A stretch of DNA of 36,522 nucleotides from Caldilineaceae bacterium (lineage in GTDB: Bacteria > Chloroflexota > Anaerolineae > Caldilineales > Caldilineaceae), in the NCBI GenBank assembly GCA_019455155.1, contig JACFMY010000001.1, positions 1-36,522 on the forward strand, given 5' to 3'. Below are positions 3,897-36,522 of the stretch, in pieces. Positions within the stretch are counted from its first letter, which is position 1. The number at the start of each line of letters is the position of its first letter. The notes beneath the pieces are model-generated. The model was not told where the DNA came from. It ran no database searches and saw only the letters and a program-made list of their open reading frames with translations. Position numbers and translations under genes: made by a program.

Positions 3897-6800
3897 ATGC
3901 CAGTGGTGCCAACCATGCCCACGTTGTATGTCCAGCTCCTTGGGGATTTTGGCCTGACCTACGATGACGATCGCGGCGTCACCGTGAACCAGGCGCGACA
4001 GCAGGCGCTGATTGCCTACCTGCTGCTGCATCGCGGCACACCGCAGTCGCGGCAGCGCGTCGCCTTCCTCTTCTGGCCCGATACATCCGAAGCACAGGCA
4101 CAGACCAATCTGCGCCAATTACTGCATCACCTGCGTCGCGCCTGGCCTGCTTGCGCCGACTATATCTATGTCGAACCGCGCACGATCGCCTGGCAAATGG
4201 GTGCCCCGTGCAATGTCGATCTCGTGGCGTTCACGCAGGCCGCGGCCGAAGCATCCGCCGCGGTGCGACAGGGCCGTACTGATGTGGCGCGGACCGCCTG
4301 CGCGCAGGCAGTAGACCTCTACCGTGGCGAGCTATTGCCTGCGTCCTACGACGAGTGGCTCCTGGCCGAACGCGAGCGGCTGCGCCAGACCTATCTCGAC
4401 ATCCTGGAGCACCTCGTCATTCTCTGTGAAAATGAACGCGATTATCCAGCAGCCATCCACTATGCTCAACGCTTCCTGCGCGCTGACCCGCTGCACGAGA
4501 CGACCTATCGGCGGCTGATGCGCCTCTACGCGCTCAATGGCGATCGCGCCAGCGCTCTGCGCACCTACCACCTCTGCGCGACGACGCTCGAGCGCGAGTT
4601 GGGCGTCGTGCCCAGTCGGGATACGCAGGAAGCGCATGCGCGCCTGCTCAACATGGCAACGCCACCGGTCCTGCGCGACCAGCCGATGCAGTCATCCTCC
4701 TCCAGCGTACGGCTGGTCGGGCGCGGGGCCGAGTGGGTGCACCTGCGCGGTGCGTGGGAAAAAGCGAGGCAAGGACACCCGCACCTCGTCTGCATCGTGG
4801 GCGAGGCCGGCATAGGCAAATCGCGGCTGGCCGAGGAACTGCTCGACTGGGTGCGCCGGCAGGGCTTTGTCCATGCCCGTGCCCGCGTCTACGATTCGGC
4901 GCGCACGCTTGCCTATGCCCCGGTGACCGAATGGCTGCGCGCCGGCTCATTTCAACCGGCGATCCTGCAGCTTCCCGTCGTCTGGCTTGGCGAGGTGACA
5001 CGGCTATTGCCCGAACTGCTTGTAGATCGACCCGATCTGCCACGCCCGGAGCCCTTGACCGAGCGCTGGCAGTTGCAACGCTTCTATGAAGCGCTGGCGC
5101 GCGCGGTGATGGCTGCGGGCCAGCCCCTGCTGTTCTTACTCGACGACATTCAATGGTGCGATCTGGAGACGCTGGAATGGCTTGGCTATCTGCTCCATTA
5201 CGACCGTACAGCCCGTTTGCTGGTGGTCGCTACCCTGCGACCTGAGGAGGTTGACGACCGCCATCCGCTGGCATCCTTTCTGCTCAACCTGGGCACCGAG
5301 GAACTGGTGACCGAGATTCCCCTGGAGCGTCTGGCTGCCGCCGAGACGGCCATGCTGGCGGCGCTGGTAGCCGAAAGCACGTTTGATCCCGCTGCCGCCG
5401 AGCGGCTCTTTGCGGAAACGGAGGGCAACCCGCTCTTTATCATCGAAACCGTGCGCAGTCTTGCGAGCAAGCCGCCCGGTGATGCGGCGGTGGCGACCCG
5501 GCTAGAGTCCTTGCCGGCCCGGTTGCAGGTCGTTATCCAGCGCCGTCTTGCACAACTGACGCCAGTTGCCCGCGAGGTAGCCGATCTCGCCGCCGTCGCG
5601 GGCCGTTCATTTACCTACGAACTGCTTGCCCGCTCCGGCGTGCTCGGCGAGGACACACTGGTGGCGGCGCTGGATGAACTTTGGCGGCGGCGCCTGGTGC
5701 GCGTGCAGAATGCCGACGACTACGATTTCAGCCACGGCCGGATTCGCGAGGTGGCCTATGCTCAGGTCAGCCCCACGCGCCGCCGGCTGCTGCATCGACG
5801 CATTGCCCACGCGCTGGAACAACTCCACCCTGATGATCTGGACACCATCGCAGGCGAGCTTGCCGCGCACTGCGAGCAAGCTGGTCTGCGGCAACAGGCC
5901 GCCCACTACTACACACGCGCCGCAGAAAGCGCACATCGGCTGCTCGCGTATCCGGAGATGGAGGCTTTCCTGCAAAAGCGGCTCGATCTGCTGGATTCAT
6001 TGCCGGCGACGCCCGAGAATCTGGCCCAGCAACTGGACACATTGTCGCGCCTGGGTGGCGCGCTCCTGATTGTGAAAGGGCTGACCGCGCCAGAAGTCGA
6101 GGCAACGCTGCGCAGAGCGCGCACAATGTGTGACCTGGTTGAGGATGCCGATAAACGCTTCGAGGTGCTGCATGCGTTGCGCTTCTACTGGGGGCAGCGC
6201 TGTCAATGGGATGAAGCCGCGCGGTTGAACGAAGAACTGCTGGCGCTGGGCTATCGCTCAGAGGAACCCGTACATCTGCAAGCCGCGCTGCGTCTGACCG
6301 GAGCGCTCTCATTTCACCAGGGCAGATTTCAGGAGGCCCATCACTACTTCGAGCAGGCAACCTCTCTCTTTGAGGTCAATCAGCCGCGCAGCCGCGGCCA
6401 GGACTTCGAACAGGACCAGGGCATCGCCAACCTACGTCGCCTCGCACCAGTGCTCTGGCTGCTTGGCTCTCCCGACCAGGCACGCGCGCGTATGCAGGAA
6501 TTGCTCGAACGGACGCGCTCCATCGCCCGCCCGTTCGACATGCTGATGTCGCTCGACTTTGCGTTTGATCTTGCGCATTACCTACGCGACCCGCACCTGG
6601 CGCAAGCGCACGCGGCCGAATACAGCGCATTGGTAGCTGAACATCCCTATCCGCACTGTGTGGCCGTGGACCTGACTTTTCGCGGCTGGGTGCTGGCCGA
6701 ACAAGGCGCGGCGGACGCAGGCATTGCCCTCATTCAGCGTGGCATCGACCAACTCCGTGCGCTGGACACTTTGCTCTACTCATCGCAAGGACTCGCCCTG

Positions 6801-7190
6801 CTCGTCGAAGCGTATGCCAGGGCCGGGCACTTCGCACAGGGCATTGCCCTTGTCGACGAAGCGTTGGCATTTGTCACTCAAATCGGTGAAAGTTACTGGA
6901 ATGCCGAATTCTACCGCACCAAGGGTGACATGCTGTTGGCATCAGGCGCAGATACCGTCGAAATCGAACGCTGCTACCAGGCCGCGATCGAAACGGCACG
7001 GCGGCAGGGCGCAAAGTCGCTGGAACTGCGTGCTGCTGTGAGCCTGGCGCGTCTGTGGCAGACGCACGGCCAAGCCGCGGAGGCCCGGCAGTTACTGGCA
7101 GGTATCTACAACTGGTTCGACGAAGGCTTCGATACCCCCGATCTCCAGGAGGCCGGCGCGCTGCTGGACGCCCTGCGCCATAGCGCATAG
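3897..7190 (+). CDS. SARP-family transcriptional regulator with AAA ATPase and TPR domains
   Basis: This 1097-aa protein has the layout of large SARP/AfsR-like activators. Residues ~8-95 form the winged-helix DNA-binding domain ('VQLLGDFGLTYDD', 'RVAFLFWPDTSEAQAQTNL'). Residues ~105-255 form the BTAD helical domain ('YRGELLPASYDEWLLAERER', 'LRADPLHETTYRRLMRLYAL'). From ~272 comes a STAND/AAA ATPase with Walker A GEAGIGKS (302-309) and Walker B LLFLLDDIQW (~411-420). The last ~430 residues are helical repeats of TPR type. Such proteins bind promoter repeats and are switched by nucleotide or ligand binding; the target genes here are unknown. The neighbouring lipoprotein and small-protein genes are candidates. 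The start could also be the ATG at 3915, since neither has a clear Shine-Dalgarno. Confidence 0.9.
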   Translation: MPVVPTMPTLYVQLLGDFGLTYDDDRGVTVNQARQQALIAYLLLHRGTPQSRQRVAFLFWPDTSEAQAQTNLRQLLHHLRRAWPACADYIYVEPRTIAWQMGAPCNVDLVAFTQAAAEASAAVRQGRTDVARTACAQAVDLYRGELLPASYDEWLLAERERLRQTYLDILEHLVILCENERDYPAAIHYAQRFLRADPLHETTYRRLMRLYALNGDRASALRTYHLCATTLERELGVVPSRDTQEAHARLLNMATPPVLRDQPMQSSSSSVRLVGRGAEWVHLRGAWEKARQGHPHLVCIVGEAGIGKSRLAEELLDWVRRQGFVHARARVYDSARTLAYAPVTEWLRAGSFQPAILQLPVVWLGEVTRLLPELLVDRPDLPRPEPLTERWQLQRFYEALARAVMAAGQPLLFLLDDIQWCDLETLEWLGYLLHYDRTARLLVVATLRPEEVDDRHPLASFLLNLGTEELVTEIPLERLAAAETAMLAALVAESTFDPAAAERLFAETEGNPLFIIETVRSLASKPPGDAAVATRLESLPARLQVVIQRRLAQLTPVAREVADLAAVAGRSFTYELLARSGVLGEDTLVAALDELWRRRLVRVQNADDYDFSHGRIREVAYAQVSPTRRRLLHRRIAHALEQLHPDDLDTIAGELAAHCEQAGLRQQAAHYYTRAAESAHRLLAYPEMEAFLQKRLDLLDSLPATPENLAQQLDTLSRLGGALLIVKGLTAPEVEATLRRARTMCDLVEDADKRFEVLHALRFYWGQRCQWDEAARLNEELLALGYRSEEPVHLQAALRLTGALSFHQGRFQEAHHYFEQATSLFEVNQPRSRGQDFEQDQGIANLRRLAPVLWLLGSPDQARARMQELLERTRSIARPFDMLMSLDFAFDLAHYLRDPHLAQAHAAEYSALVAEHPYPHCVAVDLTFRGWVLAEQGAADAGIALIQRGIDQLRALDTLLYSSQGLALLVEAYARAGHFAQGIALVDEALAFVTQIGESYWNAEFYRTKGDMLLASGADTVEIERCYQAAIETARRQGAKSLELRAAVSLARLWQTHGQAAEARQLLAGIYNWFDEGFDTPDLQEAGALLDALRHSA

Positions 7191-7348
7191 AACACCTAAC
7201 CTCTACACCTCGTCCCATAGAACGGTTTGAGAACGCCCCATTCTCTATCTTCAACCCATCCAAAGCGACGACTCACGGGTGCATTGCGGCGACAGCGGTC
7301 GATCCCGTGCGATCGTTGTCTGGAGTTGGCCGGTCAAGGATGGGGTCG

Positions 7349-12536: not shown

Positions 12537-14807
12537 CTAGCGGCGCACCACCGGCAGGAATAGCCGCGGAAGCTCGTTGTCCAACGACAACGTCTGCTCC
12601 ACGGTTTGGTCACTGCCCTCGTCAACCATCAGCTGCAACGCGCCGGCACCGTCCCATTGACCATAGTCAAAGGTCAAGGTCTCGCCGGCAGCCAATGCCA
12701 CCTCTTTGTGCAGGAACCACGTAGATCCTACACCAGTGGAACAGCCCATGCGGAAGTCAAACGCGCCGCTCGATGTACCGGCGTTGTGCAGTACCACATG
12801 CTCGCTCGTCTGGTCGATCTGCAGCGAGATAGGCTGGCCAGCCGCGAGATCAACTTGCTCGAGCGCGGCCTGGCAACCTTTGGTCGCATTCTCGACCACC
12901 AGCAACATGTTCGCCGTTGTCTGTTGCGACGACTGGTAGGTCATTCGTGCAGCCGTACGCACCGTAGTCAGCGTGCTCTGCACACCTGCCAGACCGCCCA
13001 GATCCTCGACTGCGGCCGCAAAGCCCGGTCCAAACCGGGACGCGAACAGAGGCGTCGAGCTGGCCAGCGTGGCGCCGTCGAGCGTCATTTGCATCGTGTC
13101 GTCTGTGGGCACGATGTAGACCGGCGCGCTGTCCGCGCCCAGACCGCCATCGAGATAGTCCGCGTACCCCGCGGGAATCTCGTTTAACCACTGGTCGCCG
13201 CTCTGGCCAAGGCGCCGTCCCTGGTTGTCGGTCAACAACAGCTTGCCCCCGCCCAAGAGCCAGAATTGCTCGCGGGTCCCGGCCGCGCTGGCCGTCGCTG
13301 CCGTGCTGCCGGCACACCAGTCACACGTAGATGGCTTGGCATACTCCGACAGGGCCGTAAGACCAAGATTGCCCGAAGCGGCATCACCATTCCACAAAGC
13401 CCAGCCGGCGCTGTAGCGCCACGTATGGTCACCGGTACCGAATTCTACATAGAGATCCGTCGCGTTGGGTTGGCCCGGGTCATAGACGAGCACGTGATAG
13501 ACCCCTGGCTCGCGCTCGATCGCGGCATAGGGAACAAGCAGGACGCCACCCTGGCTGCCATCGCGCAGGAAAAGGAGCAGCGGATCGCTTTTCGCTTCCA
13601 TGGCGCTCAACAGGTTGGCCAGTATGGTATTGGGGTCCGCGGTGCGCGCACTTTCCCGGTTGAGCGCGACGGGCTGCGTAAACTGCCGCGCCCAGTACAG
13701 TGCGGTCTCTTCGCGCACACTATACTGGGTCAGATCATATGCCGAGTTCGCGCCGCTTTGATAGTCCCCTGGCTTGTCGGCGCCGGTGAAAAAGCGCAGG
13801 CTTGTTACACCCATGCCACCGCCGCGCCCCACAGCCAGTGCCCGGTTCACCTGCGTCAGCCAGGCCCATGCCGCCGGGCGCAGGGCACAGGGTCCCGTGC
13901 TCTTCCAACAGGCGCCGGCTGTACCCAAGAGCTGCACGACTTCATTCAGGCCCAGATCGGCGACAGCTGAAGGAGCCATTTTAGGGCCATAGTTGGCAAA
14001 GGTATAACCATTGACAGTGGGACGGAAGCCGAGATCGTAGGGGTTATCGCCAATTTGCCGGGCGGCGTAGCGAAACAGATTCTGGATATAGGTGTCAGAG
14101 CCCGGCGTGACCGAATCGGAGGTGATCTTGCCGGTGTGAAAGATGACTCGTCCGCTCTGATACTGGCCTACGGCAAGGCTCGCAAGCTGCTGGTTCTCCG
14201 CTACCAATGCCAGCGTGATATAGCCGGCGCCCAGGTTAGCGGCCATGACACTGTCGTAGTTGCCCGCGGTCTCGTAGGGCTGCAGCCCCTGTAGGATAGG
14301 GTGTACCGCCCCCTCTGGTGTAAAGACGATCGTGCTGGCCTTCACTGGATAGCCGGGATAGAGGTGGTTGGAGACGAACACCTCAAAGCTAGCGGGCATG
14401 ATGGGCAGCGTGCCGGTGCGGTTGGGCTGTTCAACGATCAGGCCGCCCCCGGCTCCCACAAAATCGTGGATCGCCGCAGCGTAGTCGACGAGCGTATCGG
14501 CGCTCGCGCCGGCCACATAGAGCACATCGTAGCGATCCAACATGCCGCTTATCTGGGAGGGTGTGCTCACTTTGGTGACGTTGGTCACCAGCTCCTTGAT
14601 ACGGTTGCAGGACGGGATCGACGTCTCGTAACAAAGCACTCGAATGTCAGGTATCGCAGCCACGGGACTGGCTGGCAGCCCAGACGGCGCAGAGGCAGGG
14701 GGGGAGGATTCGCTGCCGTAAACAAGTGCAGGCGATCCGGCCAGGGTCAGGCTCAGAATCAGCACTGCCAACAACCGGTGCTGCAAGCGCAACACGCGCA
14801 TAAACAT
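12537..14807 (-). CDS. Secreted ThuA-like protein with Chloroflexi-type C-terminal tail
   Basis: This 756-aa protein uses the ATG at 14807. GAGGAG lies six bases upstream, which is better than the longer frame from 14855. Residues 1-~31 are a signal peptide (LLAVLILSLTLAGSPALVYG) without a lipobox. Residues ~50-260 resemble a ThuA/class-I glutamine-amidotransferase-like fold: 'YDVLYVAGASADTLVDY', 'FVGAGGGLIVEQP', 'HPILQGLQPYE', 'GRVIFHTGKI'. The middle region (~280-520) is unrecognised. Its 'GGGMGVTSLRF' and 'GVYHVLVYDPGQP' hint at a cysteine-peptidase-like or transglutaminase-like fold, but I cannot identify a catalytic Cys. The last residues, LFLPVVRR, resemble a short tail seen on many exported Chloroflexota proteins. 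Its function is unknown. Confidence 0.75.
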   Translation of the reverse strand: MFMRVLRLQHRLLAVLILSLTLAGSPALVYGSESSPPASAPSGLPASPVAAIPDIRVLCYETSIPSCNRIKELVTNVTKVSTPSQISGMLDRYDVLYVAGASADTLVDYAAAIHDFVGAGGGLIVEQPNRTGTLPIMPASFEVFVSNHLYPGYPVKASTIVFTPEGAVHPILQGLQPYETAGNYDSVMAANLGAGYITLALVAENQQLASLAVGQYQSGRVIFHTGKITSDSVTPGSDTYIQNLFRYAARQIGDNPYDLGFRPTVNGYTFANYGPKMAPSAVADLGLNEVVQLLGTAGACWKSTGPCALRPAAWAWLTQVNRALAVGRGGGMGVTSLRFFTGADKPGDYQSGANSAYDLTQYSVREETALYWARQFTQPVALNRESARTADPNTILANLLSAMEAKSDPLLLFLRDGSQGGVLLVPYAAIEREPGVYHVLVYDPGQPNATDLYVEFGTGDHTWRYSAGWALWNGDAASGNLGLTALSEYAKPSTCDWCAGSTAATASAAGTREQFWLLGGGKLLLTDNQGRRLGQSGDQWLNEIPAGYADYLDGGLGADSAPVYIVPTDDTMQMTLDGATLASSTPLFASRFGPGFAAAVEDLGGLAGVQSTLTTVRTAARMTYQSSQQTTANMLLVVENATKGCQAALEQVDLAAGQPISLQIDQTSEHVVLHNAGTSSGAFDFRMGCSTGVGSTWFLHKEVALAAGETLTFDYGQWDGAGALQLMVDEGSDQTVEQTLSLDNELPRLFLPVVRR

Positions 14808-30649: not shown

Positions 30650-31048
30650 CTACAACATCTTTACGACAACCTGCGCCTTGTTCCACAACTCTTCTAGCTT
30701 GTAGTAGCGGCGCATATCTTCGGTAAACAGATGGACGATCACGTCACCATAGTCGAGGACGGACCAGCCGCCACCATGGCCATCGAGACCGTCAGTACTT
30801 AACGGGCGCAGATCTTGCTGCAGCTTGAGCTTCTCAATGAGATCGTCTTCGATTGCGCGGGCCTGGCGTTCGTTGTCAACTGTGGCGACGATGAAGTAAT
30901 TGGCGAGGGTGGTGAGTTCGTGGACATCCAGCAACACGATATCGGCCGCCTGTTTGTCTTCCACAATGTCCACGATCCGGTGAGCAAGCGTCAAACTATC
31001 CAGATGAACCTCCTGTGGTGCAACTGCAAACATTATTGTCCCATACAT
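30650..31048 (-). CDS. rsfS: Ribosome silencing factor RsfS (Iojap family)
   Basis: This ~132-aa protein binds ribosomal protein uL14 and blocks joining of the subunits when nutrients are scarce. Family signatures are 'AHRIVDIVEDKQAADIVLLD', 'TTLANYFIVATVDNERQARA', 'GWSVLDYGDVIVHLFTEDMR' and 'YYKLEELW'. Length is normal. The first ATG (31048) lies almost on the predicted transcription start; the sixth codon ATG (31033) gives a short leader, so either could be used. Usually this gene neighbours nadD; here it lies downstream of the cofE/yqeB/ATPase group and may have its own promoter. Confidence 0.94.
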   Translation of the reverse strand: MYGTIMFAVAPQEVHLDSLTLAHRIVDIVEDKQAADIVLLDVHELTTLANYFIVATVDNERQARAIEDDLIEKLKLQQDLRPLSTDGLDGHGGGWSVLDYGDVIVHLFTEDMRRYYKLEELWNKAQVVVKML

Positions 31049-31052
31049 CTAT

Positions 31053-31058
31053 ATTATA
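31053..31058 (-). promoter_or_regulatory. -10-like TATAAT before rsfS
   Basis: The minus strand reads TATAAT at 31058-31053 within an AT-rich stretch that is rare in this window. No good -35 hexamer lies at the right distance. If real, transcription would begin about at the first ATG, giving a leaderless or very short-leader mRNA. Confidence 0.4.
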
Positions 31059-31142
31059 TAGATCAGTCTAGCATAGCAGATGTAATCACTCAAGCATCCC
31101 GGGGATATTTTACCAAATGCTAACAAGCGATATGCACGTAAC

Positions 31143-31910
31143 CTAGCGAAACACGTCCATTTCGGGCGGTCGCTGAATCGCGCGTGCCGGTGCGGGTGTC
31201 GCGGCAGGCATCCGGTATCCACGCACAATCACCACAGGCCGGCCCTCATCACTCTGCCCCATGAGCAAGCTGGCGGCAGCCGCCAACTCGTCGGCAATAC
31301 ACTCTTCACTGGAGACCAGCTCGTAGCCAAAGAGATCGCGCAGGCCCCGCTGATCCCACACGGGCGGCAGCCCCGCGCAGCCGATGGCGACGCCGACCGT
31401 GCCAATGCGCCAGGCGCGGCCGTGGCTGTCATTGATGATGACAGCTGGCAGCACGCCGGTCAACTCGCCTAGCCTGGCACGCAGCGCTTGGGCGCTGGCG
31501 TCCGCGTCCGCCGGCAACAGGGCCAGACAATCGCTTTCCACGCCAGCCTCGACGTTGCTACGATCGACCCCGGCATTGGCGCATACCCACCCGCTGCGCT
31601 GCTCCACGACCAAAAGCCCCCGGCGCATACGCACGATCTCGTTGCTGTCATCCAGGATAACTTGAACCACGCGCGGGTCCTTGCCGACAGTAGCCGCTAT
31701 CTCTTCAGCCCGTGCACTGGGTACGACATCGGCCACGCGCACCAGCCGGCCTTCCGACTTGCTCACAATCTTCTGGGCGACGACAACAATGTCACCAGGC
31801 TCCAGTGCCTCACCTGAAGCGGCAAGCGCGTCGACAATCAGCTGCGCCAGATCGTCACCCGGGACCACGTTGGGTAGGCCGGCTACGGCAAACAAGCGCA
31901 TGGATTTCAC
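31143..31910 (-). CDS. cofE: Coenzyme F420-0:L-glutamate ligase
   Basis: This ~255-aa enzyme adds glutamate residues to coenzyme F420-0 with GTP, a late step in making the deazaflavin cofactor F420. CofE signatures are 'PGDIVVVAQKIVSKSEGRLV' near the N-terminus, 'DDSNEIVRMRRGLLVVEQRS', 'VCANAGVDRSNV', and 'INDSHGRAWRIGTVGVAIGC' followed by 'LRDLFGYEL'. It corresponds to stand-alone archaeal-type CofE, not the longer FbiB fusion. The start is either GTG 31910, close to GAGGG, or the ATG three codons later. It implies that the organism makes F420. No other F420 gene is in the window. It follows yqeB after 49 bp on the same strand. Confidence 0.93.
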   Translation of the reverse strand: MKSMRLFAVAGLPNVVPGDDLAQLIVDALAASGEALEPGDIVVVAQKIVSKSEGRLVRVADVVPSARAEEIAATVGKDPRVVQVILDDSNEIVRMRRGLLVVEQRSGWVCANAGVDRSNVEAGVESDCLALLPADADASAQALRARLGELTGVLPAVIINDSHGRAWRIGTVGVAIGCAGLPPVWDQRGLRDLFGYELVSSEECIADELAAAASLLMGQSDEGRPVVIVRGYRMPAATPAPARAIQRPPEMDVFR

Positions 31911-31959
31911 TCATCCCTCGATTTCTAGATGGCAGAACGTGTGGAAGGCCAGCCGCCGC

Positions 31960-32814
31960 TCAGGCAAGCTCGCCCACGTTCCAATTCAGGTTCATTGCCT
32001 GCAACACCGCCTCCAACACTCCCCCGCCAATGGCCAGGGACTTGTCGGATACGGTATGGCAGTAGGTAGGATCCGCCCGGGGGTCCAGATCCCCAATCTT
32101 CATGTCCCGCGTGACTGGAACGAGCGGGTGGATGAGACCGCGCAGTAGCCCGTCAAACGGGGCCACGATGTTGGCTATAGCCAGACTGTCCGGGCCCGCC
32201 GTAGTCTGTATGGTGGCGACAACTGCACCTTCCGCTACGCGGTCGCCAATGGCATAGGCGCCTCTGACGTAGCCTGGCGCTGGCGCTCGCAGAACACGAG
32301 TCGCCCGTTTCCCGACTCCCGGTAGCTCGCCTGGTGTACCCGTGTCCGCCTCGGCGCAGCCTTGCCAGATCACCCGGCCCAGATTGTGCCCGCGGTTCGT
32401 CTCCACCACTGCGTGGCAATCCACACCGGCAGTGAAGCCCGGCCCCAACGCGACTACGAGCCGTGCATCGCTGCGCTGCGTACCCATGTTGCGCTTCGCC
32501 ATGATGGCGTCCACCACGACCATGGGGTGCAGTTGCTGCACCAGGGTCGCGGCTGGGTCCACAACCACCGCAATATCGCCGTCGCGCGTGATCGCGGCCG
32601 CGTCCGGTCCAGCGCAAAGGCGCCCCCGCACCTCTTCCACCATGCAGACCCCATCGAACACAGCCTGGGCAAAAGCGACGGTGCGTCGTACCGCCAGAGG
32701 CAGGGCAATCTCTGTCATAACGACCGGGAAGCCAGCACGGTGCAGACGAATCGCCACACCACTTGCCAGATCACCGGCGCCTTTTATCACCACCAGGGGA
32801 AACAATCCTGCCAT
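31960..32814 (-). CDS. yqeB: YqeB/EF2563-family molybdenum hydroxylase accessory protein
   Basis: This 284-aa protein starts 'LVVIKGAGDLASGVAIRLHR' with a dinucleotide-binding-like GAGDLASG loop, then 'VVMTEIALPLAVRRTVAFAQ', 'VVVDAIMAKRNMGT', 'LVVALGPGFTAGVDCHAVVE', and a barrel-sandwich-like C-terminal part 'RVLRAPAPGYVRG'. This family was named from clusters with selenium-dependent molybdenum hydroxylases. Its biochemical role is not settled, but it is thought to act in cofactor maturation. No xanthine-dehydrogenase-type hydroxylase is in the window, although a molybdenum formate dehydrogenase is 10 kb away. It begins 15 bp after the AAA-winged-helix gene, and 49 bp separate it from cofE, so these genes may share a transcript. 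Confidence 0.88.
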   Translation of the reverse strand: MAGLFPLVVIKGAGDLASGVAIRLHRAGFPVVMTEIALPLAVRRTVAFAQAVFDGVCMVEEVRGRLCAGPDAAAITRDGDIAVVVDPAATLVQQLHPMVVVDAIMAKRNMGTQRSDARLVVALGPGFTAGVDCHAVVETNRGHNLGRVIWQGCAEADTGTPGELPGVGKRATRVLRAPAPGYVRGAYAIGDRVAEGAVVATIQTTAGPDSLAIANIVAPFDGLLRGLIHPLVPVTRDMKIGDLDPRADPTYCHTVSDKSLAIGGGVLEAVLQAMNLNWNVGELA

Positions 32815-32829
32815 GACGAGGGTCTCAGC

Positions 32830-34212
32830 CTATTTGCGGCGCTTGGCGGGGACAAAGCGATAGCCACGACCGCGGTCGTTTTCAATGCTGCCGATAGATG
32901 GCTCAATGTTTTCCAACTGGAGGCGTAGACGCCTGATGGCTTCCTGGACACGGCGGTTGGAGGAGTCGGGGCGCTTCCAGACGTCGGCTAGCAACTGCTC
33001 GGGGGGAACAACCTGGTTCTCGTGCGCCTTGAAGTAGCGCAACAGGGCCGCCTCGGTCTTGGTGAATTGGTCTAACACATCTTCGGATAGCTCTGGCGAG
33101 GCAGGACGGGGTTGAGGCTGGGCGCCATTATCGGGCGCCAGTCGCCGGGTGACATATTCCGTAAAGAGCGGTGTAAAGAATTGGTAGCCCTGCTGATTCG
33201 GCAGCACGCAGCAGGTAACCACTGCCTGATTGATGAGCCAGTTGAGGGCCGATGCGTACTCCGGCTGCAGGTTGCCCAGCGGTAACATACCCTTGACCAT
33301 CTGGCGCAGGAGTGAATCGACGGCATCACTGCGCACCCGCGCGGGCGGTTGCTGCAGACGCCGCCAGGAGGTTTCAAAGAGCAGCCGGCTGTGTTCGGCC
33401 AGCCGCAAGCGCAGGAGCGGCACGTGGTCCCGCGACAACGTCGTCGCGCCTGGCAGCATCTGGCGCACCTCTAGCAAAATGTCGCCCAGGCGCCGCAGCA
33501 AAAATGGGTGCATGCCGGTCAGGTCCAGCAAGCCATCAAGGAGGTCAGGCACTCCGGGAAACTCGTCAGCATAGGACAGAATCCAGTCACGGGCTGAGGC
33601 CGGTTCCAGAAGCCCCAAGAAAAGCTGGGTCATTACGTTGAAGAGAGGCGATGCCGCCAGATCCCGGTCCAGATCGTGCAGCGGCTGCTCGGTGGCGACA
33701 ACCAGGGCCATCTCCAGGGTCAGCGGTCGCAGCTCGTCGACCGTTTCCCGGCGGATCCATTGTTCTTCAAAGACGCGGTCGAAATTGTCCATCAGCAGCA
33801 CAAGGCGCAAGTCCATCTCCTTGAGGGATCGGGCAACCAGCCAGATCCGGCGGCTACTCGACTGCTCCTGCTCGATCTGTTTCCAATCCAAGGAGATATT
33901 GGCATCACGCACGCGCTCAACGATCTTCTTGTAGATCCAGCCAATGAGGTCCTTGCGTGCGTCCTGCCAATCGCAGTCGACCCAGGTTACGATGACATTA
34001 GCGCCATCCTGAAACGTGAAAGGCCGCTGGTCGGCAAAGTCCTCACCCATCAGTGGTCCCTGTTCGGAAGCCAGAAAATGGAGCAGTTGGCTCTTGCCGA
34101 TGAGCTTGGGCCCGACAACAGAGAAACTCTGCGGTTGAGGCCCAAGCAACCCTTGCACAATCTCAAAGAAAACACGATTCCGGCCGAAAAACATCTTACG
34201 CCTGGACTCCAT
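32830..34212 (-). CDS. AAA ATPase with C-terminal OmpR-type DNA-binding domain
   Basis: This 460-aa protein starts at ATG 34212. AGGAGG at 34224-34219 decides the start and overlaps the stop codon of the upstream gene. Residues 7-~330 form an ORC/Cdc6-like or STAND ATPase: 'MFFGRNR', Walker A 'GPKLIGKS' (34-41), Walker B 'LVLLMDNFD' (Asp142), and 'GLLDLTGMHPFLLRRLGDIL', typical of AAA_16-like proteins. Residues ~372-459 are a winged-helix effector domain with 'FTKTEAALLRYFKAHENQVV', 'RRVQEAIRRLRLQLE' and the wing 'RGRGYRFVP'. No receiver domain is present, so the ATPase takes the place of the usual phospho-switch. Probable ATP-dependent transcription regulator. Confidence 0.87.
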   Translation of the reverse strand: MESRRKMFFGRNRVFFEIVQGLLGPQPQSFSVVGPKLIGKSQLLHFLASEQGPLMGEDFADQRPFTFQDGANVIVTWVDCDWQDARKDLIGWIYKKIVERVRDANISLDWKQIEQEQSSSRRIWLVARSLKEMDLRLVLLMDNFDRVFEEQWIRRETVDELRPLTLEMALVVATEQPLHDLDRDLAASPLFNVMTQLFLGLLEPASARDWILSYADEFPGVPDLLDGLLDLTGMHPFLLRRLGDILLEVRQMLPGATTLSRDHVPLLRLRLAEHSRLLFETSWRRLQQPPARVRSDAVDSLLRQMVKGMLPLGNLQPEYASALNWLINQAVVTCCVLPNQQGYQFFTPLFTEYVTRRLAPDNGAQPQPRPASPELSEDVLDQFTKTEAALLRYFKAHENQVVPPEQLLADVWKRPDSSNRRVQEAIRRLRLQLENIEPSIGSIENDRGRGYRFVPAKRRK

Positions 34213-34222
34213 CAGCAACCTC

Positions 34223-36522
34223 CTACTCCGTATTCAGTGCGAGCCACTGCTGGAACAGCAGGCTAGCGAATTGCCACCGATCGGGCGCCGGCTGCAACAA
34301 AATATCCTGATCCGTCATGGTACGTAGAGCCGTACGCAGACTCTCGGGAGCGACATTGGGAAGTGCCGCCCGGATGCGCGCCCAACTTACCTGGCGATCG
34401 CCTTGATCGACAGCGAGCCGTGCTACAGTGCCCGCTACATGGTTGGCGATACCGCGCAGCATCTCCGTCATGTGGGCGAAGGTGTGCTCCTGGGGCTGCA
34501 TAAACTCCAGGCGAACGCCCTCCACGTCCTCTGGCATGACCTGCTGGCGCTGCTGGCGCGCCATGTGCATGACCAGATTGTGACAAAATGCCTGGATTAG
34601 AAACGGACTGCCGCCAACGAGCCCAGCCACACGGTCCACGATCTCTGCCGTATAGTCGAGATGGTTACGCATGGGCCATTCGATGAGGCGGCGTACGTCC
34701 TCATCTTCCAAGGGACGCAGATGAAGGCGATGGCCAACATCCATCAGCCGCCAACTGGGGTCGTCGGGGTTGTTCCCCAGCTGCTGCACCATAGTCTCAC
34801 AGGTCTGCTGCTGCATGACGACGATATAGCCAATGTTGGCACGCTGGGTCGTGTGCATCATGCCGCGCCAGAGATCGAAGAAGCTGCCGTCCAGCTCCCC
34901 CTGCAAATACGCGTCGGTGAAGCGACTGAATTCGTCCATGAGCAACACCAGGCGCCGTGCCCCCAAAGCTGCCTGGACATTCGTGAGATACTCGATCAGC
35001 CGCCGTGCCGCGTCTTCATCAAACAGACTGCGTAGCGGCGCGCCCACTTCGCCCAACCGGCCCTCGCTGCTCAGGCTCGAATAGACGCTGCTGGCCACCT
35101 GGAAGAAGACACTGGCCCGCGCCGGGTGGCCCATAAGCTGAAAATCTACAAAGACCGGCGCAAAATTGCGCGCCGGCAAATAGTGCTCCTTCAAATGTAA
35201 GAGGAGCGAAGTCTTGCCTACACGCTTCTGGCCAATCAGCCAGACGCCCGGCTGCCGCGTGGCCAGACATTCCAGGATGCGTTCACGTTCCTGCGACCGG
35301 CCAAAGAACATGGCGTCCTCATTTACGGGCAGGCGAGAATATGGATTGAAGACTGTGCCGTGTACTATCTCCTGCCATTCGGCCTGCTCTGACGGCGGCA
35401 GCTGCAGTGACTGCACCTCGGAAATGGTGTAGTCAGGGAGCGAGCGCAGAGCGTCCACAATCTCTTGGATCGTGGCAAGCTGGTCGGCTTGGAGGTCGAA
35501 TTGTAGGCGAGCAGAGCCATGGCGCGCCATGGCGCGTACCTGGTGCAGCGTTACGCGCGGTTGGCGCGCATAGACCTGGGCGATAGCTGCCCCCAGGAGG
35601 CCGTCTTCATCCAGCGCGCGCAGGTCGATCCGGGCAACGGTAACCAGTTGGGGCTTGAGACGCCACTTGGTGGGCAACACTTCACCGTGGCCCGCAATGC
35701 GTTGGCAACCTTGGCGATGAATCGTGAGCCGCACGGCCTCGCCGTGACGCCGGTAGACGTTCCCCACGATCTCGTCGCCGAGGATAGGCCGGCAACATTG
35801 AGCCAGATGCAATTGGTGGTGGCGCAGGCGCAGCGAACGGGGAATCTCAACCAGGCGCAGAATCTCGCGTTCGAACAGACGATGGAAGAGACGGTCGGCA
35901 GCAAACTGGCCAGACGCAACCGCGGCGAGCAGATCTTCCTTGCGGGCAAAGTTCTCCCGGCGCATGGTATCCACAATGGCCTTTTCCACTTTGTCCGGGG
36001 GTAGGTTGAAACCATAGTGCTGTTCCAATGCCTTCAGGCGCTCATCCAAGATCTTCTGGCCGTGGTAGATGCCGGGGCCCTGGCGTTTTAGATAGCGCTC
36101 AATCGCGTTCCGGGCACGGGAGGTATGCGCCGCCAGCAGCCACAGACGGGTGGGCCCCGGCGCGCGCGGGTCATGCTCCAACTCGACCAGGTCCAGATGG
36201 CGCAGAACAGTTGCAGGCTCCACAGGTCGTCCATTGACGACAAAACGACGGCACTGTTCAGCCAGGTCCGAGTGTACATGATAGGCGAAGTCGACAACTG
36301 TGCTACCCCGATCAAAGCCGAACAGCTGCCCCTGTGGGCTAAAGACAAAGAGTCGTTCGGGCAACGAGCCAGGTTGTGCTGTGGCGATCTGTGTGTAGCC
36401 GGTAGCCGCGTCGTTCCACCAGGCTCCGGGCGTGGACATCTGCAGATGATCGCGCATATGGAGCGCGGCTGCACCCCACAGATTGATTTCGTACTGCGCA
36501 CGCAGCGCGATGACGAAATTGA
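34223..36522 (-). CDS. RelA/SpoT regulatory region fused to an AAA ATPase (5' partial)
   Basis: The frame is open to the right edge; the first ATG inside is at 36457, and residues are counted from it. Residues ~34-94 are a TGS domain ('ERLFVFSPQGQLFGFDRG', 'VDFAYHVHSDLA'). Residues ~110-205 match the RSH helical domain ('HTSRARNAIERYLKRQ', 'ALEQHYGF'). Residues ~215-255 are the Cys zinc-finger domain with C221, C222, H247, C251 ('QCCRPILGDEIVG', 'IHRQGC'). Residues ~269-350 resemble an ACT domain. From ~379 an ATPase begins: 'AMFFGRSQERERILE', Walker A 'GQKRVGKT' (409-416), Walker B 'LVLLMDEF' (Asp508). In RelA/SpoT these regulatory parts sense deacylated tRNA on ribosomes. The 21 codons before the Met ('FVIALRAQYEINLWGAAALH') may be the end of a synthetase-like domain. 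Confidence 0.85.
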   Translation of the reverse strand, partial: NFVIALRAQYEINLWGAAALHMRDHLQMSTPGAWWNDAATGYTQIATAQPGSLPERLFVFSPQGQLFGFDRGSTVVDFAYHVHSDLAEQCRRFVVNGRPVEPATVLRHLDLVELEHDPRAPGPTRLWLLAAHTSRARNAIERYLKRQGPGIYHGQKILDERLKALEQHYGFNLPPDKVEKAIVDTMRRENFARKEDLLAAVASGQFAADRLFHRLFEREILRLVEIPRSLRLRHHQLHLAQCCRPILGDEIVGNVYRRHGEAVRLTIHRQGCQRIAGHGEVLPTKWRLKPQLVTVARIDLRALDEDGLLGAAIAQVYARQPRVTLHQVRAMARHGSARLQFDLQADQLATIQEIVDALRSLPDYTISEVQSLQLPPSEQAEWQEIVHGTVFNPYSRLPVNEDAMFFGRSQERERILECLATRQPGVWLIGQKRVGKTSLLLHLKEHYLPARNFAPVFVDFQLMGHPARASVFFQVASSVYSSLSSEGRLGEVGAPLRSLFDEDAARRLIEYLTNVQAALGARRLVLLMDEFSRFTDAYLQGELDGSFFDLWRGMMHTTQRANIGYIVVMQQQTCETMVQQLGNNPDDPSWRLMDVGHRLHLRPLEDEDVRRLIEWPMRNHLDYTAEIVDRVAGLVGGSPFLIQAFCHNLVMHMARQQRQQVMPEDVEGVRLEFMQPQEHTFAHMTEMLRGIANHVAGTVARLAVDQGDRQVSWARIRAALPNVAPESLRTALRTMTDQDILLQPAPDRWQFASLLFQQWLALNTE

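Follow-up and report, generated by a model that had tools for sequence, protein, structure and literature searches.

The window, by which we mean the whole 36,522-nucleotide stretch analysed, holds at its far end a gene for a decayed Rel protein joined in frame to a P-loop ATPase, and we are highly confident that this is a pseudo-Rel/STAND fusion within a two-gene system. From sequence comparison and structure prediction we consider it somewhat probable that this system is a tRNA or starved-ribosome sensor, which would make no (p)ppGpp and would act on transcription through a pair of STAND-type ATPases. The features concerned are as follows, with residues of the fusion numbered in its 744-aa ORF.

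34223..36522, (-) strand: pseudo-Rel/STAND-type ATPase fusion gene; the in-window 3' 765 codons of a frame of ~1070 codons, full-length in homologues
36350..36522, (-) strand: degenerate synthetase end and linker to TGS (PF04607 in the full frame; catalytic residues absent)
36179..36349, (-) strand: TGS domain, residues 37-93 (PF02824; in the 5iqr alignment H62 = RelA H432 and P41 = RelA P411)
35858..36148, (-) strand: alpha-helical (AH/HEL) domain (alignment to 6htq and 5iqr)
35690..35818, (-) strand: zinc-finger/RIS domain with ligands C221, C222, H247 and C251 (RelA alignment)
35432..35635, (-) strand: ACT/RRM domain (ACT_4; RelA alignment up to residue 734; D283 = RelA D675)
34232..35347, (-) strand: STAND/ATPase_2-type P-loop ATPase with a winged-helix-like C-terminal tail, residues 371-742 (AAA_16, nSTAND1, AAA_35; Foldseek 2qen, 2fna)
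35207..35233, (-) strand: Walker A GQKRVGKTS, residues 409-417 (K in 26/26)
34928..34945, (-) strand: Walker B LLMDEF, residues 505-510 (DE in 26/26)
32830..34218, (-) strand: partner gene, AAA/STAND-type ATPase with an OmpR/PhoB-type winged helix, 462 aa (Trans_reg_C 6.8e-14; fold)
34090..34113, (-) strand: partner Walker A GPKLIGKS (G36, K38, G41 and K42 invariant)
32854..33066, (-) strand: partner winged-helix DNA-binding domain (Trans_reg_C; PhoB 1qqi 2e-8, with a 10-row family profile)

From its first ATG the fusion ORF covers 34223-36457 on the (-) strand and encodes 744 aa, and its frame stays open up to the window edge, which is a scaffold gap of 10 N; contig C573 (55,906 bases, in an assembly of 6.85 Mb and 780 contigs) continues beyond. 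Read across the gap, the frame runs from 34223 to 37435 of the contig and encodes approximately 1070 aa, with domains in the order degenerate HD, degenerate synthetase, TGS, helical, zinc finger, ACT and ATPase. Within the 744-aa ORF, Pfam places TGS (PF02824) at residues 37-93 (1.2e-12; 2e-12 in the full frame), ACT_4 at residues 275-342 (2e-4; 3.5e-4 in the full frame) and AAA_16 at residues 384-519 (1.3e-7, above its own cut-off; 1.2e-7 in the full frame), and the NCBIfam RelA/SpoT model TIGR00691 spans residues 22-342 (1.4e-30), or residues 242-668 of the full frame (2e-42). The closest PDB sequence matches are to ribosome-bound RelA (6htq, 1e-40; 5iqr, 9e-33), and the zinc ligands C221, C222, H247 and C251 align exactly with C612, C613, H634 and C638 of E. 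coli RelA. These Pfam and TIGR00691 matches, the RelA alignments and the intact Walker A and B motifs confirm the architecture proposed in the initial annotation, in which TGS, helical, zinc-finger and ACT modules are followed in frame by an ATPase. Its description of the Rel part as a regulatory half fails, as the frame beyond position 36522, checked for hydrolase and synthetase domains, holds both in degenerate form only (PF04607 at residues 243-296 of the full frame, 3.5e-5; HD_4, 0.03). The long-RSH order HD-SYN-TGS-HEL-ZFD-ACT is present, with HD and SYN merely degenerate remnants in the window protein, and the decayed hydrolase and synthetase across the gap make this a full-length pseudo-Rel plus ATPase.

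The 10-N gap lies in the synthetase region, and the N-terminal half of the window protein is joined to the rest by inference. As such, it could be argued that unrelated genes have been linked through the scaffold gap or by misassembly, but the probability of such an artefact is negligible, as the ACT-to-ATPase junction lies away from the gap and the frame is unbroken in approximately 40 other genomes. The same homologues rule out misassembly at the fusion junction, including the misassembled join near residue 355 that had been raised as a possible flaw. We also rule out that the fusion is the cell's only Rel, as a canonical Rel is encoded on a separate contig of the same genome (C697; TIGR00691 712 bits) and the tree described below places the fusions outside the canonical Rels.

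Homologues with the same fusion could be listed from approximately 40 independent Chloroflexota genomes of at least two classes. Among 60 relatives scanned, 10 further genomes of the same family carry the fusion, with both parts covered, 43-70% identity and stop-free frames, one of which is cut by a contig edge; within the family as a whole the fusion is present in 11 of 37 genomes. A wider profile gave matches spanning the RSH part and the ATPase in 30 of 396 sampled genomes of the class, from 10 families, together with a 31st match to the ATPase only; families f68 and f76, which lie outside the class, also have members. Matching contigs in a named collection came from Caldilineaceae, a Litorilinea, other Anaerolineae and unclassified Chloroflexota, while a cross-phylum contig scan, which would miss distant members, gave 12 fusion matches, all from Chloroflexota. 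The distribution is patchy. One genome (G145) carries two diverged copies of the fusion (L163, L165), each beside its own partner gene. Thirty-two members, with complete frames of 1017-1224 aa, were examined in detail, a further locus (L170) being left out because of an in-frame stop; 26 of these were aligned residue by residue, and the other six are L208-L213.

Both enzymatic centres of the fusion are lost. A complete hydrolase HD...ED motif was found in 0/26 aligned members, as was a complete synthetase active site. The HD dyad alone is kept in four distant members (L166, L167, L168 and L184). The full set of synthetase residues tested (the R-x-K loop, D264 and E323, in RelSeq numbering) is present in no member, and the single member that keeps the E323 equivalent lacks the others. 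In the window protein the stretch with these residues falls at the 10-N gap, and for the E323 position it is the gap-free homologues that settle the point. The active sites are lost even in the least decayed members (L213, L184 and L167), which give clear HD and SYN Pfam matches: L213 (HD_4 1.5e-21, RelA_SpoT 2.1e-19) has HE in place of HD and N in place of the catalytic E. This loss in all members examined rules out an active bifunctional Rel with an added ATPase, and leaves unsupported the earlier suggestion that signalling through ATP hydrolysis might operate in addition to (p)ppGpp synthesis.

The sensing half and the ATPase present a different picture from the dead catalytic half. The TGS histidine equivalent to RelA H432 is present in 26/26 aligned members, and in 29/32 when L208-L213 are counted, being absent from three distant members (L208-L210). 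Equivalents of RelA P411 and D675 are kept in 25/26 and 19/26 respectively (numbering mapped via alignments to 5iqr), and the zinc ligands of the ZFD/RIS domain in 23-25 of 26, with all four in the window protein. Structures of RelA on the ribosome show H432 stacked between bases C74 and C75 at the CCA end of the tRNA, P411 touching A76 and D675 touching L16 (PMC4974054). A few members other than L213 lack single zinc ligands; in L213 itself (4174-7227, (-) strand) the zinc finger is entirely absent, with TGS, ACT and ATPase kept. Given the histidine and zinc losses in some members, ribosome or tRNA sensing may not hold family-wide. In the ATPase, the Walker A lysine and Walker B Asp-Glu are present in all 26 members, and the GxP segment before the winged helix is recognisable as G-x-P in most aligned rows, with P618 invariant across 24 distant members. 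Codon comparison of two full-length pairs gave dN/dS of approximately 0.13-0.16 for the sensing half versus 0.26-0.28 for the dead catalytic half; for the ATPase, dS was saturated in one of three pairs and the other two gave 0.16 and 0.21. Column identity across 10 homologues was 0.57 for TGS, 0.51 for HEL, 0.46 for ZFD, 0.48 for ACT and 0.47 for the ATPase, and 0.32 for the pseudo-catalytic half. Together, these values indicate selection on sensing and ATPase, with weaker selection on the dead enzymes.

That selection on the pseudo-HD/SYN fold is still purifying, and that the fold is retained, would be in keeping with a ribosome-independent ligand sensor, in which the ATPase is gated by an amino acid or a nucleotide such as (p)ppGpp bound to the pseudo-catalytic pocket or to ACT. 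The GYRxLH motif partly persists (Y in 20/26, R in 21/26), and the loss of the TGS histidine from three distant members also fits such a sensor. We nevertheless regard it as rather unlikely, since the pseudo-catalytic half is the least conserved part of the protein while the tRNA and ribosome contacts are among the most conserved.

Structure prediction is in agreement with the domain assignment. An AlphaFold model of a gap-free homologue (L056, 1068 aa; 12-row alignment, pLDDT 75.7, pTM 0.42) matches ribosome-bound RelA (5kpv, 3.5e-21; 5iqr, 1.9e-20) and SpoT (7qpr), with an N-terminal part matching the RelSeq catalytic fragment 1vj7 (TMt 0.71) and a C-terminal part matching the archaeal STAND-like ATPases 2qen and 2fna. 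The model is modest overall, with TGS its weakest part, and its large whole-chain rmsd makes the domain arrangement unreliable, such that its support is limited to the domain folds; at that level the comparison with ribosome-bound RelA that had been proposed did recover the RelA folds. Sequence, structure prediction and the conservation of contact residues and of gene linkage support the initial annotation in its view that a probable ribosome- or tRNA-sensing region is coupled to an ATPase.

The downstream ATPase with its DNA-binding domain, which goes unmentioned in the initial annotation, is the most informative part of the system for its output. This partner gene starts 4 bases past the fusion stop. 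A second ATPase gene stands directly downstream of the fusion on the same strand at every locus with enough contig, and the spacing between the two is small in the 25 loci measured, often -4, -8, 0, 3 or 4 bases, negative values being overlaps. The predicted structure of the partner (pLDDT 86.6) is similar to Orc/Cdc6 and NOD/MalT-type ATPases that end in a winged helix. An OmpR/PhoB-type DNA-binding domain is present wherever this part could be resolved; the profile did not resolve any winged helix in the most distant pairs, L208 and L209. Pfam finds in the partner no receiver domain of two-component response regulators, and the ATPase occupies that place.

On the (-) strand downstream of the pair (30650-32814) lie a 284-aa gene without a Pfam match, which we presume to resemble EF2563/YqeB-type proteins, an F420_ligase gene (31143-31910) and a gene for the ribosome-silencing factor RsfS (30650-31048). 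In Caldilineaceae these genes are in part retained next to the pair (L039, L040, L042, L044 and L048). STAND-type ATPases are common in defence, and the patchy distribution of the fusion would suit a conflict system in which the STAND ATPase acts as an alarm reading phage-caused translation stress. Such a role is very improbable here: neither the fusion nor the partner matches any PADLOC model of known anti-phage systems at E 0.01, the partner ends in a PhoB-type DNA-binding domain with no toxic effector, and the neighbours are of housekeeping type (F420_ligase, RsfS).

The same ATPase module is also found behind GAF-containing proteins (L050, L051), with an ATPase-winged-helix gene alongside. 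It likewise stands behind FG-GAP/beta-propeller proteins (L187, L188), where a related ATPase gene is close by. At a further locus in the same genome as the window (L189), the reading frame of a comparable ATPase is overlapped by a gene for a two-component-regulator propeller. The pseudo-Rel occupies the sensor position of these other proteins, and it is chiefly on this ground that we read it as an input module. These loci suggest that paired ATPases may serve Chloroflexota as a general signalling chassis, to which different sensors (Rel, GAF, propellers) could be fitted interchangeably. They also bear on the explanation that the fusion regulates the canonical Rel of the same genome, the pseudo-Rel binding to starved ribosomes or to that Rel and so competing with it or titrating it, the ATPase then removing the pseudo-Rel and transcription by the partner being secondary. 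Kept ribosome contacts with lost catalytic sites are as expected of a competitor, and a canonical Rel is available to be regulated, but this explanation accounts neither for the constant next-gene ATPase, with its DNA-binding domain where resolved, nor for the same ATPase pair after GAF or propeller sensors, and we think it quite improbable.

A conserved region upstream of the fusion, just beyond the window (L003 ~13490-13640, equivalent to ~37490-37640 of contig C573), carries candidate divergent promoters, TTGC-N17-TATATT towards the fusion and TTGACA-N17 away from it, and repeated TTGTGTAT half-sites. At its core is the 14-mer TTGTCAATACMCAA, which has a single occurrence in the 6.85-Mb genome, while four other loci have this 14-mer or a close variant at the equivalent place; the 8-mer TTGTGTAT is present in 8/11 loci, versus at most 3 in simple shuffles. 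On these sequence grounds the repeat region is a candidate operator for the partner. PhoB-like 11-base tandem spacing was not clearly found in it, the spacings being 8-10. Small ORFs of ~64-75 aa (e.g. MMQLDLLIAQERYNEMVREAERIRLAEEV...), which look alike between several loci, begin at the far side of this region and run divergently from the fusion in L003, L039, L040, L041, L044 and L045.

The preferred reading, sensing of starved ribosomes or tRNA with output to transcription, can be set out as a series of steps. The pseudo-Rel would dock on starved ribosomes with deacylated tRNA, or bind deacylated tRNA, through TGS, zinc finger and ACT. Pinning of TGS may then cause a conformational change in the C-terminal ATPase adjoining ACT, whose ATP/ADP state would reach the partner ATPase, probably through hetero-assembly of the two ATPases. 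In response the partner winged helix would change its DNA binding and so alter how target genes, its own operon perhaps among them, are transcribed. The overall effect would be starvation signalling by a branch that is independent of (p)ppGpp and operates alongside the cell's canonical Rel. We infer this ribosome-to-transcription mechanism with roughly even confidence.

A tree built on the TGS-ACT region sets the fusions apart from the canonical Rels of Chloroflexota and other phyla; a single origin is compatible with the tree at weak support (48/13), and the least decayed members are nearest to the canonical Rels. It is possible that a Rel duplicated, captured an ATPase and gradually decayed in its enzymatic half, an origin that is tentative because some branches are long. 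The fusion is a variant of the long RSHs, its parts being known families. It shares with Rel, RelA and SpoT their domain order, the ribosome and tRNA contact residues and the folds of ribosome-bound RelA, and differs in the loss of both active sites, in approximately 400 extra ATPase residues and in its operon with an ATPase-winged-helix gene. Like the fusion, E. coli RelA has an inactive hydrolase domain, TGS H432, the zinc finger C612/C613/H634/C638 and ACT D675; unlike it, RelA has an active synthetase and ends after ACT. With STAND/ATPase_2-type ATPases (archaeal 2qen and 2fna; Pfam nSTAND1 and AAA_16) and MalT the fusion shares a P-loop ATPase, a winged-helix-like tail and the GxP segment, and in STAND regulators such as MalT the ATPase is a switch between sensor and output, as we read it here. 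In contrast to those regulators, the sensor of the fusion is a Rel-derived body, and a separate, co-encoded ATPase carries the DNA-binding domain. AfsR/SARP-NOD transcription factors likewise join a DNA-binding domain, of SARP/OmpR type, with a nucleotide-binding oligomerisation ATPase, but in one polypeptide with a TPR domain, and with neither an RSH part nor a second ATPase (PMC10936776). The RSH survey of 2011 defined 30 subgroups, and the word 'ATPase' is absent from its main text (PMC3153485); TGS domains are mentioned merely in passing for vWA-MoxR conflict systems (PMC7159879). No description of an RSH-ATPase fusion or of a catalytically dead sensor Rel was found in the open-licence PubMed Central literature.

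We place a little short of even odds on the full proposal, that a dead Rel and a heteromeric STAND-type ATPase pair let a stalled ribosome control transcription by a path that itself has no (p)ppGpp step, as one form of a general chassis. The best-known bacterial route from deacylated tRNA on the ribosome to transcription is (p)ppGpp made by Rel or RelA. If the mechanism proposed here were demonstrated, starvation signalling of a new kind would be established: starved ribosomes would have a second way of reaching the promoter, and the RSH sensor would be reusable as a module.
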